NCBI RefSeq assembly: GCF_029360645.1
Contig: NZ_JARDUA010000003.1
Location: 62,001 to 126,000 of the forward strand
DNA length: 64,000 nucleotides
Source of the DNA: Pontibacter litorisediminis
GTDB taxonomy: Bacteria; Bacteroidota; Bacteroidia; Cytophagales; Hymenobacteraceae
Reading direction: 5' to 3'
Shown here in pieces: positions 19,124-62,541 of this stretch. The position numbers were made by a program, and so were the translations under genes. Numbering within the stretch: position 1 is the stretch's first letter; each line of letters opens with the position of its first letter. The notes below the pieces were generated by a model. It made no database searches, was not told the DNA's origin, and was given only the letters and a program-made list of their open reading frames with translations.

Positions 19124-19230
19124 ATCTTCGGGTAGGCAATCGTACGGGGTTTGCCCTATTACGTCTGTTTTACAACCAGCAGGTAGAGTCGCAGCAGCAG
19201 CAGCAGCAGCAGTACGAACTACCCGAAGAT
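19124..19230. repeat. 12-bp inverted repeat flanking a (CAG)7 tract
   Basis: ATCTTCGGGTAG (19124-19135) is the exact reverse complement of CTACCCGAAGAT (19219-19230). The second copy forms the last codons and stop of the hydrolase gene. Between them is a run of seven CAG units (19192-19212). Possible terminator remnant or local duplication. Confidence 0.5.
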
Positions 19231-19992
19231 CGTCTCAGCAAATTTCTCTATAGCCTTGCGTGTCTCATAAGGGCGCTCGAACATGCCCATGTGGCCGGTC
19301 TTCTCCAGGAAATATACCATGCTGTTGCCGGGCAGGTGGCACTGCTCCAGCGCCTTCTCCAAGGGCACGGCCCCATCCTCTTTGCCAAAGATAAATAGCA
19401 CCGGGAATTTTGCCCCGCGCAGCACGCCGGTGCGGTCAGGGCGGTCGCGCATGGCGGCGAGGGCACCTTTTATACTTTCTTTCGGGGTGGCCTTGCCGAT
19501 GTTCTTCATCAGCTCAATTTCCTGCTGCAGCCGTTCGCGGTTGCCCTGGTAGAAGAGTGGTTCCGTAAACGGGTTGATAAAGTTATCCACCCCGTGGCGC
19601 TCCACGAAGTCAATACTCTTGCTGCGCTGCTCCTTCTTCTCGTCCGTGTCGGGCAGGGCAGAGGAGTGGAAAAGGCAGAGACCGCTGAGCATGTGGCCAT
19701 ACTTTTCGGCAAAGGCCATGCTAACATAGCCGCCCATGGAGTGGCCAATCAGAATGCACTTCCTTACACCCAACTTCTCCAGCTCTTGCTTCACATCATC
19801 GGCCATACTTTCCATGCTGTAGCGCTGGGCGCCTTGCGTATTGTCGCCAAAGCCCGGCAGGTCCAGGGCGATGATGCGGAACTTCTGCTGCAGTGGCTGC
19901 GTGAACTCCGCCCATACTTGCTTGCTCTCGCAGAAGCCGTGCAGGAAAACCAGCGTGTCGCCGGAGCCGTGGTCGGTGTAGGTGTTTGCCAT
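19219..19992 (-). CDS. Alpha/beta hydrolase
   Basis: A 257-residue cytosolic enzyme with the alpha/beta-hydrolase fold: oxyanion region VFLHGFCESKQVW (about 15-27), nucleophile elbow GHSMGGY (Ser about 85), a late Asp (FGKEDGAVP, about 205) and catalytic His (KTGHMGMFE, about 238). The sequence resembles esterases and haloperoxidase-like enzymes; the substrate is unknown. Its ATG (19992-19990) touches one arm of the 44-bp inverted repeat, so its native promoter may have been displaced by that element and it may be read through from the GxxExxY gene. Confidence 0.92.
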   Translation of the reverse strand: MANTYTDHGSGDTLVFLHGFCESKQVWAEFTQPLQQKFRIIALDLPGFGDNTQGAQRYSMESMADDVKQELEKLGVRKCILIGHSMGGYVSMAFAEKYGHMLSGLCLFHSSALPDTDEKKEQRSKSIDFVERHGVDNFINPFTEPLFYQGNRERLQQEIELMKNIGKATPKESIKGALAAMRDRPDRTGVLRGAKFPVLFIFGKEDGAVPLEKALEQCHLPGNSMVYFLEKTGHMGMFERPYETRKAIEKFAETIFG

Positions 19993-20035
19993 TTGTCTGA
20001 ATCAGGATTTTCAGGATTAGTGGATTGACAGGATT
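19992..20035. repeat. 44-bp inverted repeat, left arm
   Basis: Begins TTTGTCTGAATCAGGATT. Its reverse complement matches 20486-20529 at 43 of 44 positions (one A/G difference). It abuts the hydrolase start codon. Confidence 0.95.
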
Positions 20036-20060
20036 CCCTTCAAAAGTATAAAATTGGGAA

Positions 20061-20438
20061 TTACCCCTTATACCTGCTGTTGGATATCTTTTTATACTGG
20101 AGGCTACTTGCTCCAAAATTAATAAGAAGGCCTATGGGCATGTTATAAGCAACAGCATCGTTCTTCGCCTGTGCCCAATGAACATCTTCTAAGTTGACCA
20201 ATGCTTTAAGTTCAACCACAATGTTATTCTCAACTACAAAGTCAGCTCCGCGATGACCTACTTCAGTGTTGTTGTAAAACATTGTCTGGTCTTTCTCCCG
20301 CTCAAAACCTAATCCAGCAAGCTCTAGCTTTATCGCTAAGCAACGCTGATAAGTTACCTCCTGAAAGCCATTGCCCATAGTAGTATGTACCTTCATGGCA
20401 CAGCCAATTACTTTATAGGTGATGTCATCCAATTGCAT
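20061..20438 (-). CDS. GxxExxY protein, PD-(D/E)XK nuclease superfamily
   Basis: A 125-residue protein. The family signature GxxExxY is GFQEVTY at residues 24-30. A PD-(D/E)XK-like core follows: Asp66 (RGADFVV), then Glu76 and Lys78 (VVELKA), and a later Gln90, consistent with a nuclease fold. This family (TIGR04256, Pfam PDDEXK_3) is common and often multicopy in Bacteroidota, with no established function. The gene is enclosed by a 44-bp inverted repeat. Its A+T-rich composition differs from its neighbours (dxs and the hydrolase), suggesting a separate origin. It is read towards the hydrolase gene. Confidence 0.9.
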   Translation of the reverse strand: MQLDDITYKVIGCAMKVHTTMGNGFQEVTYQRCLAIKLELAGLGFEREKDQTMFYNNTEVGHRGADFVVENNIVVELKALVNLEDVHWAQAKNDAVAYNMPIGLLINFGASSLQYKKISNSRYKG

Positions 20439-20485
20439 GAAGTACTATACGACATCAACTATAAGTATGTGAATTTAGTAATAGA

Positions 20486-20529
20486 AATCCTGTCAATCCA
20501 CTGATCCTGAAAATCCTGATTCAGACAAA
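20486..20529. repeat. 44-bp inverted repeat, right arm
   Basis: Begins AATCCTGTCAATCCACTG and ends ATTCAGACAAA. Reverse complement of 19992-20035 with one mismatch. Confidence 0.95.
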
Positions 20530-20560
20530 AAAAGCCCCGCAGCTTTTACACTGCAGGGCT
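20530..20560 (-). terminator. Terminator after dxs
   Basis: Stem AGCCCCGCAG (20533-20542) / CTGCAGGGCT (20551-20560) with one mismatch. On the minus strand the T-run merges into the outer edge of the 44-bp repeat. Confidence 0.85.
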
Positions 20561-20595
20561 CTGCTCTGGAATAGTCTTTATCAGAATTTTATTTC

Positions 20596-20632
20596 ATCCT
20601 GTTCATTCGCTAATCCTGTAAATCCCGATCAT
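20596..20632. repeat. Decayed third copy of the AATCCTG repeat
   Basis: CATCCTGTTCATTCGCTAAT and the following TCCTGTAAATCCCGATC align with the right arm at roughly three quarters of positions, in the same orientation. It ends at the dxs stop codon. Confidence 0.6.
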
Positions 20633-22545
20633 ACTTTCACCGGCACACCCACCAACTCCCGTACGGCATTTTCGATGTCGATCGGGGCAAAGCCAGCCTC
20701 GTGCTGCAGCTCCAGCTGGGAGCCGTGCTCAAAAATAGCATCCGGAATACCGAGGCGCTTCACCTGGCAGGTATAGCCGTTGTCTACCATGAACTCCAGC
20801 ACCGCGCTTCCGAAGCCGCCCTGCAGGCAGCCATCTTCCACGGTCACCACCTTCTCATACTTGCTGAAGATGTGGTGCAGCAGCTCTTCGTCCAGTGGCT
20901 TGGCGTAGCGCATGTCATAGTGGCCCGGCATGATGCCGTCGTGCGCCAGTTTCTGGCAGACGTCCACGGCATAGTTGCCCACATGGCCGAAGGTAAGGAT
21001 AGCGACCTCTTCGCCTTCCTGAATGGTGCTGCCTTTGCCCACCTGCTGCAGCTCCAGCGGCGTGCGCCACTGTGGCATCACACCCTCGCCGCGCGGGTAA
21101 CGAATCGTGAACGGGCCCATGTCCTCCTGCGAGGCAGTGTACATCATGTTGCGTAGCTCCTGCTCGTTCATCGGGGCGGCCACCACCATGTTCGGGATGC
21201 AGCGCATGTAGGCGATGTCGTAAGCGCCGTGGTGTGTGGGGCCGTCGGCACCGGCAAAACCGGCCCTGTCGAGGCAGAAGACCACGTTCAGGTTCTGCAG
21301 GCACACATCGTGCACCACCTGGTCGTAGCCGCGCTGCATAAAGGTGCTGTAGATATTGCAGAACGGCACCAGCCCCTGCGTGGCCAGGCCAGCGGAGAAG
21401 GTAACCGCATGCTGCTCGGCAATGCCCACGTCAAACGCACGGTCGGGCATGGCCTTCATCATGATGTTGAGCGAGCAACCGGATGGCATGGCAGGCGTCA
21501 CACCCATGATCTTCGGGTTCTGCTCGGCCAGCTCCACCATCGTATGGCCGAACACATCCTGGTACTTTGGCGGCTGCGGCTGGTCGTACTGCTTTTTATA
21601 GATCTCGCCGGTAATCTTGTCGAAGGTGCCAGGGGCGTGCCATTTGGTCTGCTCTTTCTCGGCCAGGGCAAAGCCTTTGCCTTTAGTAGTAAGCACGTGC
21701 AGGATCTTTGGGCCTGGGATGTGCTTCAGGTCTTCCATCACCGATACTAGGTGGTTGATGTCGTGACCGTCTATCGGGCCAAAGTAGCGGAAGTTCAGTC
21801 CCTCAAACAGGTTGCTCTGCTTCAGGATGGCTGCCTTTACGCCGCTCTCAATCTTAGAGACAATGGTGCGGGCATCCGGACCAAATTTGCTGATCTTGCC
21901 CAATATCTTCCACACCTCGTCGCGCATCTTGTTATAAGTGCGGGAGGTGGTGATGTCTGTTAAATATTCTTTGAGCGCGCCCACGTTCGGGTCGATGCTC
22001 ATGCAGTTGTCGTTGAGCACCACCAGCAGGTTCGCGTTGGCCACGCCGCCGTGGTTCAGGGCCTCGAATGCCATACCGCCCGTCATGGCGCCATCGCCGA
22101 TCACGGCAATGTGCTGGCGTTTTTCCTCGCCCTTATACTTAGAGGCCACGGCCATGCCCAGTGCCGCCGAAATAGAGGTGCTGGAGTGGCCCACGCCAAA
22201 GGTATCGTACTCGCTTTCTTTGCGCTTCGGAAAACCGGAGATGCCGCCATGCTTGCGGTTGGTATGGAACACGTCGCGGCGGCCCGTCAGGATCTTGTGC
22301 CCGTACGCCTGGTGCCCCACATCCCACACCAACTGGTCGTAAGGCGTGTTAAACACGTAGTGTAACGCTGTGGTAAGCTCCACCACGCCCAGGCTGGCCC
22401 CAAAATGGCCGCCATGGATCGATACAACGTCGATGATATACTGCCTTAGCTCCTGTGTTACCTGCAGTAGTTGCTCCGGCTTCAGGTTCCGCAGGTCGGC
22501 AGGCGAGTTGATGGAGGCAAGCAGCTCTCCGGGTTTGATTATCAT
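20629..22545 (-). CDS. dxs: 1-deoxy-D-xylulose-5-phosphate synthase
   Basis: A 638-residue enzyme from the ATG at 22545 (MIIKPGELLASINSP); an upstream in-frame start at 22659 would add a hydrophobic stretch foreign to the family. It condenses pyruvate and glyceraldehyde-3-phosphate in the first step of the MEP isoprenoid pathway, using thiamine diphosphate and Mg. The ThDP motif is GDGAMTGGMAFEALNHGG with a later LNDNCMS. The transketolase pyrimidine domain has GIAEQHAVTFSAGLA and DRAGFAGADGPTHHG. The C-terminal domain has TVEDG. Length is normal. It has a terminator at 20530-20560; a repeat relic touches its stop. Confidence 0.97.
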   Translation of the reverse strand: MIIKPGELLASINSPADLRNLKPEQLLQVTQELRQYIIDVVSIHGGHFGASLGVVELTTALHYVFNTPYDQLVWDVGHQAYGHKILTGRRDVFHTNRKHGGISGFPKRKESEYDTFGVGHSSTSISAALGMAVASKYKGEEKRQHIAVIGDGAMTGGMAFEALNHGGVANANLLVVLNDNCMSIDPNVGALKEYLTDITTSRTYNKMRDEVWKILGKISKFGPDARTIVSKIESGVKAAILKQSNLFEGLNFRYFGPIDGHDINHLVSVMEDLKHIPGPKILHVLTTKGKGFALAEKEQTKWHAPGTFDKITGEIYKKQYDQPQPPKYQDVFGHTMVELAEQNPKIMGVTPAMPSGCSLNIMMKAMPDRAFDVGIAEQHAVTFSAGLATQGLVPFCNIYSTFMQRGYDQVVHDVCLQNLNVVFCLDRAGFAGADGPTHHGAYDIAYMRCIPNMVVAAPMNEQELRNMMYTASQEDMGPFTIRYPRGEGVMPQWRTPLELQQVGKGSTIQEGEEVAILTFGHVGNYAVDVCQKLAHDGIMPGHYDMRYAKPLDEELLHHIFSKYEKVVTVEDGCLQGGFGSAVLEFMVDNGYTCQVKRLGIPDAIFEHGSQLELQHEAGFAPIDIENAVRELVGVPVKV

Positions 22546-22919
22546 AGTGTTATCCTTATAGACCCCTAACAAAAAATATGGGCTAAAGTTTAAAAAGCAC
22601 AAACTGTACCCTTTCTTCCAAAAGGTAAAGTTAGTAAATAAAAAAACACAAGCCGCCACCTAATGTGGCAGAACACTTGTACGAATTATATAGGTAAAAG
22701 TATATGTATGCCGGAAAAAGGCTGCAAGGGCAAAAAAGCAGACCTCTGCTGCTGTGCCCGCCGCCCTATGTTTTGCTGTATACCCTGCCGCTGCCAAATA
22801 GTTGTGAACCATGGCCCGCCTGTTTAGGTTGAAGCAGGGAAGCCGGAAGTATGCAATCCGCTGAAAATGTTTATTTTTGCCACCTGCGCAGCCACACGCG
22901 CCCATAATGAGTTGATAAG
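22546..22919. other. Divergent intergenic region between dxs and scpA
   Basis: About 370 bp between divergent starts. It holds the dxs leader and a TATTTTTG promoter element for scpA. An 81-codon minus-strand ORF here has no recognisable protein character and is not called. Confidence 0.5.
22872..22879 (+). promoter_or_regulatory. -7 element of scpA (TATTTTTG)
   Basis: TATTTTTG matches TAnnTTTG, 40 bp before the GTG start of scpA. Confidence 0.5.
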
Positions 22920-61737: not shown

Positions 61738-62541
61738 TTAGAACGTATACGTTACAGCCATCCCGTCATACCACCCATTGCTCTCGGGTGCCAGCGAGAA
61801 CCTGGAGCCCCGCTTGTGCAACTCCGGCACCAGTATGCCAATGGTGGTGCCGACAGCATAACCCACCAAGTTGTCGCTGAGGAAATGCTTGCCTGCCTTC
61901 AAGCGCAAAAAAGCCACAGCAGCCGGAACAGTGGCCGCGGCGGCCCATACGTAAGGCCGGGCCGGGGAGTCCGGGTTGAAGTCGTGGTACACTTTGGCGA
62001 GAAAGAACGTAGCGGTGGCCGTGGCGGCGGTGTGGCCGGCGTAGAAAGAGTTTGTTGCCTGTTTGTCTGTTTTCAAGCCTACAGGAGCATCGGCGGCATA
62101 CACGTAGGGGCGCTTGCGTTTGGTAAGGCCGGCCGTCATGCTGTACATGCCGCCTGCGATAGACAATGCCTGCCCATACAGCAAGTATACTTGTGGCGCG
62201 TTCTGCTTTATGTCGTCATCCAGCAGGAGCAGCAGCGGGGCAAGGAAAGAGCCATAGAACGGAAAGTCGCTTAAGGTCTCGGCGCTGGTGCTGTAGTTGC
62301 CTGCCGCAAATCTGTCAAACCCATTCACATCGTTTTTAGACAAGGCTGCCAGGTCGGCAGTGCTAACCCTGTCCTTCTTTCCAATCAGTATGTTTCCGGC
62401 CACGGTGGCCCCTATAGCTCCAACCGTGATGCCTCCATCGCGCAGCCAATCCGTTTGGTAAGGCGAGGCAGCACCATCCTGTGCATTGGCAGCAAGCGGT
62501 AAAAGCACAACCGCCAAGAAGAGACACAGCCGCCGTTTCAT
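61738..62541 (-). CDS. PAP2-family phosphatase-like protein, copy A
   Basis: A 267-residue protein with a signal peptide (LCLFLAVVLLPLAANA) and several membrane-like segments. PAP2 motifs are seen in order: a KX6RP region (GLTKRKRPYVYA), NSFYAGHTAAT in place of the usual PSGH, and RLKAGKHFLSDNLVGY for the SRX5HX3D motif. It is a membrane phosphatase acting on lipid phosphates or undecaprenyl pyrophosphate. It follows a close paralog after a 2-bp gap and has the same length, so the pair arose by tandem duplication. Confidence 0.9.
   Translation of the reverse strand: MKRRLCLFLAVVLLPLAANAQDGAASPYQTDWLRDGGITVGAIGATVAGNILIGKKDRVSTADLAALSKNDVNGFDRFAAGNYSTSAETLSDFPFYGSFLAPLLLLLDDDIKQNAPQVYLLYGQALSIAGGMYSMTAGLTKRKRPYVYAADAPVGLKTDKQATNSFYAGHTAATATATFFLAKVYHDFNPDSPARPYVWAAAATVPAAVAFLRLKAGKHFLSDNLVGYAVGTTIGILVPELHKRGSRFSLAPESNGWYDGMAVTYTF

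Follow-up and report, generated by a model that had tools for sequence, protein, structure and literature searches.

A GxxExxY nuclease-fold gene between inverted repeats as a candidate minimal mobile element in Pontibacter and other Bacteroidota

Introduction

Mobile elements are classed largely by their enzyme. In REPtrons, a small enzyme gene encoding a RAYT, or TnpA-REP, lies alongside its cognate repeats, the REPs and REPINs. The tnpA-REP genes are described as accompanied by dispersed REPs, with doublets as the proposed replicative unit (PMC3116915), and as mostly single copy, with no evidence of mobility (PMC8266576). Insertion sequences and MITEs offer a second comparison, with a single gene within terminal inverted repeats and short gene-less derivatives that keep the same ends. 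A further arrangement is the intervening sequence (IVS) of Coxiella 23S rRNA, in which a small open reading frame of the S23 protein family sits in the loop between terminal inverted repeats, heptamer repeats lie upstream of the frame, and the whole is termed a selfish element (PMC4990558).

The present analysis concerns a unit found in a 64,000-nt stretch of the genome of Pontibacter litorisediminis, a member of the Bacteroidota (hereafter the window; assembly GCF_029360645.1, contig NZ_JARDUA010000003.1, forward-strand positions 62,001 to 126,000). It consists of one gene of the GxxExxY family between two inverted arms. In organisation, its nearest working analogue appears to be the REPtron. 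Both combine a small enzyme gene with cognate repeats alongside, many dispersed repeats, gene-less inward-facing doublets and a repeat type that co-varies with the protein type. The enzyme, however, is of the PD-(D/E)XK type (PDDEXK_3) and not a HUH Y1 transposase; the arms are about 44 nt of motifs with an 8–11-nt period and have no GTAG head; and the gene, placed within the doublet, has travelled together with it, unlike the situation just cited for tnpA-REP. The unit likewise differs from insertion sequences in having no DDE or other known transposase, its only gene being PDDEXK_3. On balance, we consider it probable that the 538-bp unit is a minimal mobile element, made of a GxxExxY nuclease-fold gene and its inverted arms and working like a REPtron with an unrelated enzyme.

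The unit in the window and its neighbours

The features of the locus are collected in Table 1. The original prediction of two near-perfect inverted arms enclosing a single gene, fitted exactly between the start codon of a hydrolase and the T-run of the dxs terminator, was borne out on reading the sequence. The left arm begins at 19992, the same base at which the hydrolase ATG starts; the right arm shares bases with the A-run (the minus-strand T-run) beside the dxs terminator hairpin, and the unit occupies the gap between the hydrolase gene and that terminator. The arms are 450 nt apart, and a search of the 64-kb window with 12-nt seeds turned up only this inverted repeat among those of 28 nt or longer with a spacing of up to 3 kb. 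The last one or two bases of the 44-nt arm are probably a chance extension, since the conserved outer end in relatives is TTGTCTGAATC. No RNA family scored above its gathering score in 19400–21200.

Table 1. Features of the unit and the adjoining genes (positions in the window)
Feature	Position	Strand	Remarks
Alpha/beta hydrolase gene, left neighbour	19219–19992	−	Matched in 50/50 genomes of the genus
Whole unit	19992–20529		538 bp; homologues at unrelated sites, homology ending at the arms
Left arm	19992–20035		44 nt; GTCTGAATCAGGATT core at 19995; CAGGATT-type motifs every 8–9 nt
GxxExxY (PDDEXK_3) gene	20061–20438	−	125 aa; sole gene between the arms
Right arm	20486–20529		Reverse complement of the left arm at 43/44 positions
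Terminator-like hairpin of dxs	20534–20560	−	Read from the sequence; minus-strand T-run enters the right arm
Degenerate extra arm material	~20574–20632		Between the dxs terminator and the dxs stop codon
dxs gene, right neighbour	20629–22659	−	

The extra arm material beyond the terminator comprises a degenerate third arm (a match at 20596–20629, 82% to the left arm) and an arm core with three mismatches at 20574–20589, in the stretch before the dxs stop codon; it was not seen in the closest relative. The arms of 19 units begin GTCTGAATC or a near variant of it. Two arms, one of them taken on both strands, fold no better than shuffled sequences (z −0.64, −0.87 and 0.85).

The genome of P. litorisediminis contains one GxxExxY gene and 12 places with the 25-nt outer part of the arm (at most 3 mismatches; control 0). 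Two of its arms, L013 and L018, adjoin GGTCCAACCACCCC-type elements, and L013 also adjoins a GGACAGGTCGCGACCTGTCC palindrome, so that several repeat families are nested in the same gaps.

The GxxExxY protein is a predicted nuclease

The gene product is a plain member of its family, as had been proposed from the sequence alone, matching the models TIGR04256 GxxExxY (E=1.7e-34, 118.7 bits against a curated cut-off of 35) and PF13366 PDDEXK_3 (E=1.6e-32), which give no function. Thirteen residues are invariant in 36 aligned members: H18, Y55, Q90, G103, L105, N107, F108, the motif residues G24, E27 and Y30, and the D66, E76 and K78 whose integrity the original prediction had noted. Y94 is nearly invariant and forms with Q90 a QxxxY pattern, the motif of RecB-type nucleases. 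In the window copy, K replaces E37 and D replaces Y94, both at nearly invariant positions of the family, and the protein may for that reason be impaired.

The predicted structure of the protein (pLDDT 95.9) has as its closest solved fold in the VIA-align list the protein SSO0001 (4IC1; Z 10.4, the next entry 8.0). Only this Cas4 row stands clear of the rest, and families outside the list may be related as well; the resolvases and restriction enzymes at Z 6–7 may reflect a shared arrangement only. Foldseek alone returned no match under 0.001 (best 1.0e-03), and a search by sequence found no solved relatives up to E=10. A PD-(D/E)XK core (D66, E76, K78) set in a matching alpha-beta fold makes the protein a predicted nuclease. 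The titles of two papers name SSO0001 a Cas4 protein (PMC7513108) and Cas4 a 5′ to 3′ DNA exonuclease (PMC3466216). In common with Cas4/RecB-family nucleases, the family has the D...ExK signature and Q90 invariant and Y94 nearly so, together with the nearest solved fold. Whereas Cas4 has four cysteines for an Fe-S cluster, none occurs among the invariant or nearly invariant columns of the GxxExxY family, so no cluster of the Cas4 type is expected and the family is not Cas4 itself; the unit also has no cas genes.

Ratios of dN/dS between related units lie at 0.03–0.10 in 13 of the 15 pairs with a computable dS, which is near saturation in several of them, and show that the protein is under purifying selection. 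A role as a defence gene was rejected: two members gave no PADLOC match at E≤1, and PHROGs returned weak, mostly unnamed matches (best E 0.001). Phage or plasmid origin was likewise set aside, one query protein having matched 0 of 50,697 phage records and 8 of 72,556 plasmids; a pattern scan of viral contigs gave 1 match.

Recurrence of arm–gene–arm units

Within the genus, GxxExxY genes are present in 25 of 50 genomes, at 38 places and in some cases decayed. The 38 places derive from 41 rows, three of them having been split over two rows each. Bracketing was assessed at 37 of these places as an inverted-arm score of at least 14 within 400 nt; a decayed copy at the window locus, in genome G044, was left to the census given below. 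Inverted arms bracket the gene at 30/37 places, and at 27/37 when a score of at least 24 is demanded. By flank clustering the 37 places represent 15 chromosomal sites, and the 30 bracketed ones fall at 11 of these. Controls scored lower. Reversing the right flank gave no score above 9 in 30 loci, and pseudo-gene windows beside the unit reached at most 10 and 12 in 30 genus loci and 30 phylum loci, respectively. With the hydrolase as a control gene, a score of at least 14 was reached in 2 of 29.

In the phylum as a whole, 149 of 296 genomes have a GxxExxY protein over the cut-off. Of 30 best matches, 13 were bracketed at a score of at least 14 (control 1); the figure was 31 for 72 named loci (control 1) and 29 for 56 further phylum loci (control 0). 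All three sets consist of best-scoring matches and not of random draws. Eight of 80 named loci had been left out for short flanks, and four of 60 further loci because two were cut by contig ends and two were tandem; two of the 56, L252 and L270, are loci already present among the first 30, and there is partial overlap between the named and unnamed sets, as seen in the identical arms of L145 and L211. A clear bracketing repeat thus accompanies only about half of the sampled loci outside the genus, which counts against the preferred explanation. The arms there are mostly CACAGAG- or CGCAAAG-type repeats, also inverted. Bracketed named loci occur outside the Bacteroidota in Anaerolineae (L210), Opitutaceae (L236) and a gammaproteobacterial bin (L248), all of them metagenome bins that may be mis-binned.

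Some loci show other arrangements. At L402, L061 and L074, a full short doublet stands on either side of the GxxExxY gene, a second architecture like that of RAYT between REPINs. Two genomes contain tandem GxxExxY units (L282 and L289); apart from these, units sharing a genome never exceed 75% identity over 300 nt in the set of phylum loci retrieved, and the lack of any sign of a recent within-genome burst counts against the preferred explanation. At the site shared by L058, L063, L064, L066, L069, L071 and L072, a coding gene ends (3′) directly at the unit, and the arm sequence GTCTGA appears, by eye, to provide the stop codon of that gene.

The arms of a unit change together

If the arms were independent copies of an intergenic repeat, the alternative that the original prediction had itself raised, the two arms of one unit should match no better than arms drawn from different units. 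Across 19 main-type units, left and right arms agree at 798 positions, compared with a mean of 756 (s.d. 8, largest 796) over 10,000 permutations in which right arms were shuffled among units of the same site and those of the single-site units L068 and L075 were swapped. Both arms of L063 share a 2-nt difference in length. The arms of a unit therefore change together, either through selection for pairing or through copying of one arm from the other, and the independent-repeat reading is ruled out by this permutation and by the ending of homology at the arms (see below).

Arm type also follows protein type. Arm and protein similarity are correlated over 55 units (Mantel r=0.65, p≤0.0002) and still so once the units of the genus are removed (r=0.47, p≤0.0005), neither value being corrected for phylogeny; the set comprised units with a score of at least 16 and a readable protein, one per genus site and two for one site. 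The periodicity of the arms is weak: self-match in the genus is 0.38 at distance 9 (distal DNA 0.28), and the phylum set gives 0.36 at distance 10 (distal DNA 0.25).

Movement as a block and the state of empty sites

Ninety-eight pairs of units at different sites and 90 pairs at the same site were compared, both members being bracketed (score at least 14) with at least 450 nt aligned; the pairs are not independent. Between different sites, homology never continues more than 11 nt past an arm end (median 2); 31 of the 98 pairs are homologous from arm to arm at all four ends. Same-site alignments continue for a median of 1362 nt. A different site was defined by the lack of a flank match of at least 250 nt, so only extensions well under that length are a free result. 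Since homology between sites stops at the arms, arms and gene have moved between chromosomal sites as a block. The clearest pair joins L065, at the window locus in G015, to L068, at another site in G038 (89.2% over 581 bp, unrelated flanks); L075, at a third site in G028, is 83.6% identical to L065 over 568 bp. Together with the bracketing of 30 of 37 places over 15 sites, these boundaries support the mobile unit that had been proposed, and the empty or gene-less site versions that the original prediction had suggested looking for are present in close relatives.

One gain is clear from the sequences compared. G018 and G038, whose flanks are 91% and 90% identical, have an armless spacer of 89–90 bp at the L075 site, as do three further relatives. 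The spacer is absent from G028, where a 559-bp unit stands in its place; the unit evidently replaced the spacer of about 90 bp. The same intergenic space contains gene-less doublets of about 127 bp in G022 and about 144 bp in G035. No target duplication is visible at this one clean empty site, a possible difference from insertion sequences and MITEs, and other sites are too diverged to be read in this way. A second gain may have occurred at the L068 site. Here G009, G028, G018, G015 and G045 lack the gene and show a GGGGTAGGGG-type insertion in their right arm, while G013 is empty. Only in G038, though it is sister to G009 (99.1/98; deeper forks weak, 52–64), do clean arms occur together with the gene, and its complete unit may have displaced a degenerate version that had no gene. 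Arms at other loci (L362, L378, L398) contain an insertion of this kind too, however, so that it may have originated repeatedly.

A short GGGGTAGGGGCCC-type sequence lies inside the arms at L311, L312, L313, L316, L321, L362, L378 and L398. It seems to be a further repeat that either targets or tolerates one and the same place in the arm.

The hydrolase–dxs gap itself is readable in 49 genomes of the genus, P. litorisediminis included (G033 was left out at a contig end). With an arm counted as the 16-nt core at up to 3 mismatches, 4 genomes have an intact GxxExxY gene at this locus (the window and three others), 1 has the decayed copy (G044), 4 have a DUF559 gene and at least one arm, 6 have both arms and no gene, 13 have one arm and no gene, and 21 have no arm. 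Arms present without variation in all relatives would have spoken against mobility, and this is not what the locus shows. On a species tree built from the hydrolase and part of dxs, the four intact genes are scattered over distant parts, which implies either an ancient insertion followed by many losses or insertion more than once. In the closest relative (hydrolase 93% identical), each arm is reduced to about its outer 20 nt, and a different palindromic element lies in the space enclosed.

These site histories bear on an alternative in which the doublets are independent repeats and GxxExxY behaves as a parasite resembling a homing endonuclease, cutting gene-less doublets so that repair copies in the gene together with the donor arms. 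PD-(D/E)XK homing endonucleases exist, and the L068 site, with gene and clean arms in one species and degenerate gene-less arms in five relatives, is what such a parasite would leave, albeit with a lesion that recurs elsewhere. The 19 of 49 genomes that have one or both arms at the window locus, and neither a GxxExxY nor a DUF559 gene, are likewise consistent with it. The L075 unit, on the other hand, brought its own arms, because five relatives have none there. Arm type moreover tracks protein type across species, and the same changes are common to both arms of a unit. Homing of this kind consequently seems unlikely to us.

The arms form a dispersed repeat family

A 23-nt arm pattern with up to 2 mismatches has 1,366 matches in 49 of the 50 genomes (0–104 each); the reversed pattern has none in the 50. 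In the six genomes whose places are completely listed (132 of the 1,366 arms), all 12 neighbouring pairs of arms within 700 nt of each other face inwards and none outwards. Five are of gene size (536–589 bp) and hold a gene, and seven, at 108–208 bp, are too short for one; L397 and L400 are likewise gene-less doublets with the ends of the unit. In a sample of 30 arms, one per genome, 5 have an inward partner, 0 an outward one and 2 a same-strand neighbour, so most arms (25 of 30 without an inward partner) are solitary or have lost their partner, a further point against the preferred explanation.

Genomes with a GxxExxY gene contain a median of 26 arms and those without it 13 (one-sided p=0.0023, not corrected for phylogeny). 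When two arms per gene are subtracted, the medians are 23 and 13 (p=0.010, again not phylogeny-corrected), a calculation in which G007 had five places subtracted and not four. The difference is modest and counts against the preferred explanation, as does G018, with 87 arms and no GxxExxY gene. Arms that were common and unlinked to the gene had been named as grounds for abandoning the original prediction. They are indeed common and mostly gene-less; the gene, for its part, is seldom found without arms in the genus. RAYT and REP likewise combine repeats that mostly lack a gene with a gene that seldom lacks repeats.

The abundance of arms in genomes with no GxxExxY gene (G018, G009 and G012) is what one would expect if the arms were moved by another enzyme of the host or of an element, or by ordinary recombination, with GxxExxY as cargo serving a different cellular role. 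All five gene-size inward pairs among the 12 close pairs nevertheless hold GxxExxY, and the arm type follows the protein type. Mere cargo would not readily explain why the same family recurs within CACAGAG- or CGCAAAG-type arms elsewhere in the phylum. We therefore regard a passenger role as improbable, and the preferred account, in which the protein would act on its own arms, as better suited to these data.

Other one-gene systems with arms of their own

Two further gene families of the genus occur in a comparable setting. The four-helix S23 protein (TIGR02436) is encoded in 47 of 50 genomes and a DUF559 nuclease in 46 of 50. Among the 30 best loci of each, an inverted-arm score of at least 14 was reached by 21/30 for S23 (L079–L108; control maximum 13) and 27/30 for DUF559 (L109–L138; control maximum 11). 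S23 arms have a strong 7-nt period (0.56 against 0.26), built of TAGATGT, GACACAA, GTATCAC and other types of repeat, and DUF559 arms are hairpin-like in appearance, of GACCTCCCCCTGCCCCCTCCTAAAAACAGGAGGGGGT and GGTCCAACCACCCCT types. At the window locus, L022, L023, L025 and L026 each combine one or more remaining arms of the GxxExxY type with a neighbouring DUF559 gene that has inverted arms of its own; this gene points one way in two of the species and the opposite way in the other two. On a bolder reading taken up below, at least three parallel systems, with arm grammars that are periodic at 9–11 nt (GxxExxY), periodic at 7 nt (S23) and hairpin-like (DUF559), would coexist in these genomes.

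The 7-nt repeats of the S23 arms recall the heptamers of the Coxiella IVS, which carries the same protein family. An alternative for the GxxExxY unit is an RNA-level element like the 23S rRNA IVSs, the arms of which would pair in the transcript and be kept matching for folding or for RNase III processing. The anatomy of a gene within a stem-loop, as in the Coxiella IVS, and the co-variation of the arms of a unit accord with it. The protein, however, is a different one, and while the IVS sits in 23S rRNA, the window unit (between the hydrolase gene and dxs) and the flanks that were read lie between protein genes. The units also show mobility as DNA blocks, although IVSs may spread as DNA too, and we judge an RNA-level origin very improbable. 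That two independent copies of an intergenic repeat merely happen to flank an ordinary gene, as the dispersed and mostly gene-less arms might suggest, has a negligible chance of being correct given bracketing at 30 of 37 places with a reversed-flank control of at most 9 in 30 loci, homology boundaries at the arms and co-variation within units.

A possible mechanism and its significance

We infer that GxxExxY drives the movement of its unit. That the protein may act on its own repeats, as the original prediction suggested, has indirect support from the joint change of the two arms, from arm periodicity and selection on the protein, and from the agreement of arm type with protein type. In the mechanism we propose, the protein, as a Cas4/RecB-like PD-(D/E)XK nuclease, would recognise the periodic, phased motifs of the arms and cut DNA at or near them. 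Repair or strand invasion would then copy the unit, or a gene-less doublet, into a new intergenic site without target duplication, the insertion replacing the local spacer or an older arm site. Such cut-and-repair fits better than the staggered cut of a transposase, because, at the one clean site, no duplication is visible and a spacer was lost.

The arrangement points to a hitherto undescribed kind of minimal mobile element. In the open-access literature searched (by name, repeat terms and arm sequences), no description was found that links the GxxExxY family to such arms, and a unit with a Cas4-like nuclease as its sole gene was not met. On a bolder reading, which could well be right but which we hold with less than even confidence, GxxExxY elements would constitute a separate autonomous mobile class and belong to a set of three or more parallel one-gene systems that differ in their arm grammars; the presence of three unrelated one-gene systems with three arm grammars in a single genus is the most surprising lead of this work.

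A widespread orphan family, found in about half of the phylum genomes surveyed, would gain a testable role, and a large class of intergenic repeats a candidate source. Candidate cognate arm DNA is now known for several subfamilies, which makes direct experiment possible. Should the bolder reading be true, a single Cas4/RecB-like nuclease would stand in for a transposase on periodic inverted arms and would move both itself and gene-less doublets throughout the Bacteroidota and beyond; the parallel one-gene systems would then account for a large part of the intergenic repeats of these bacteria that lack an explanation.
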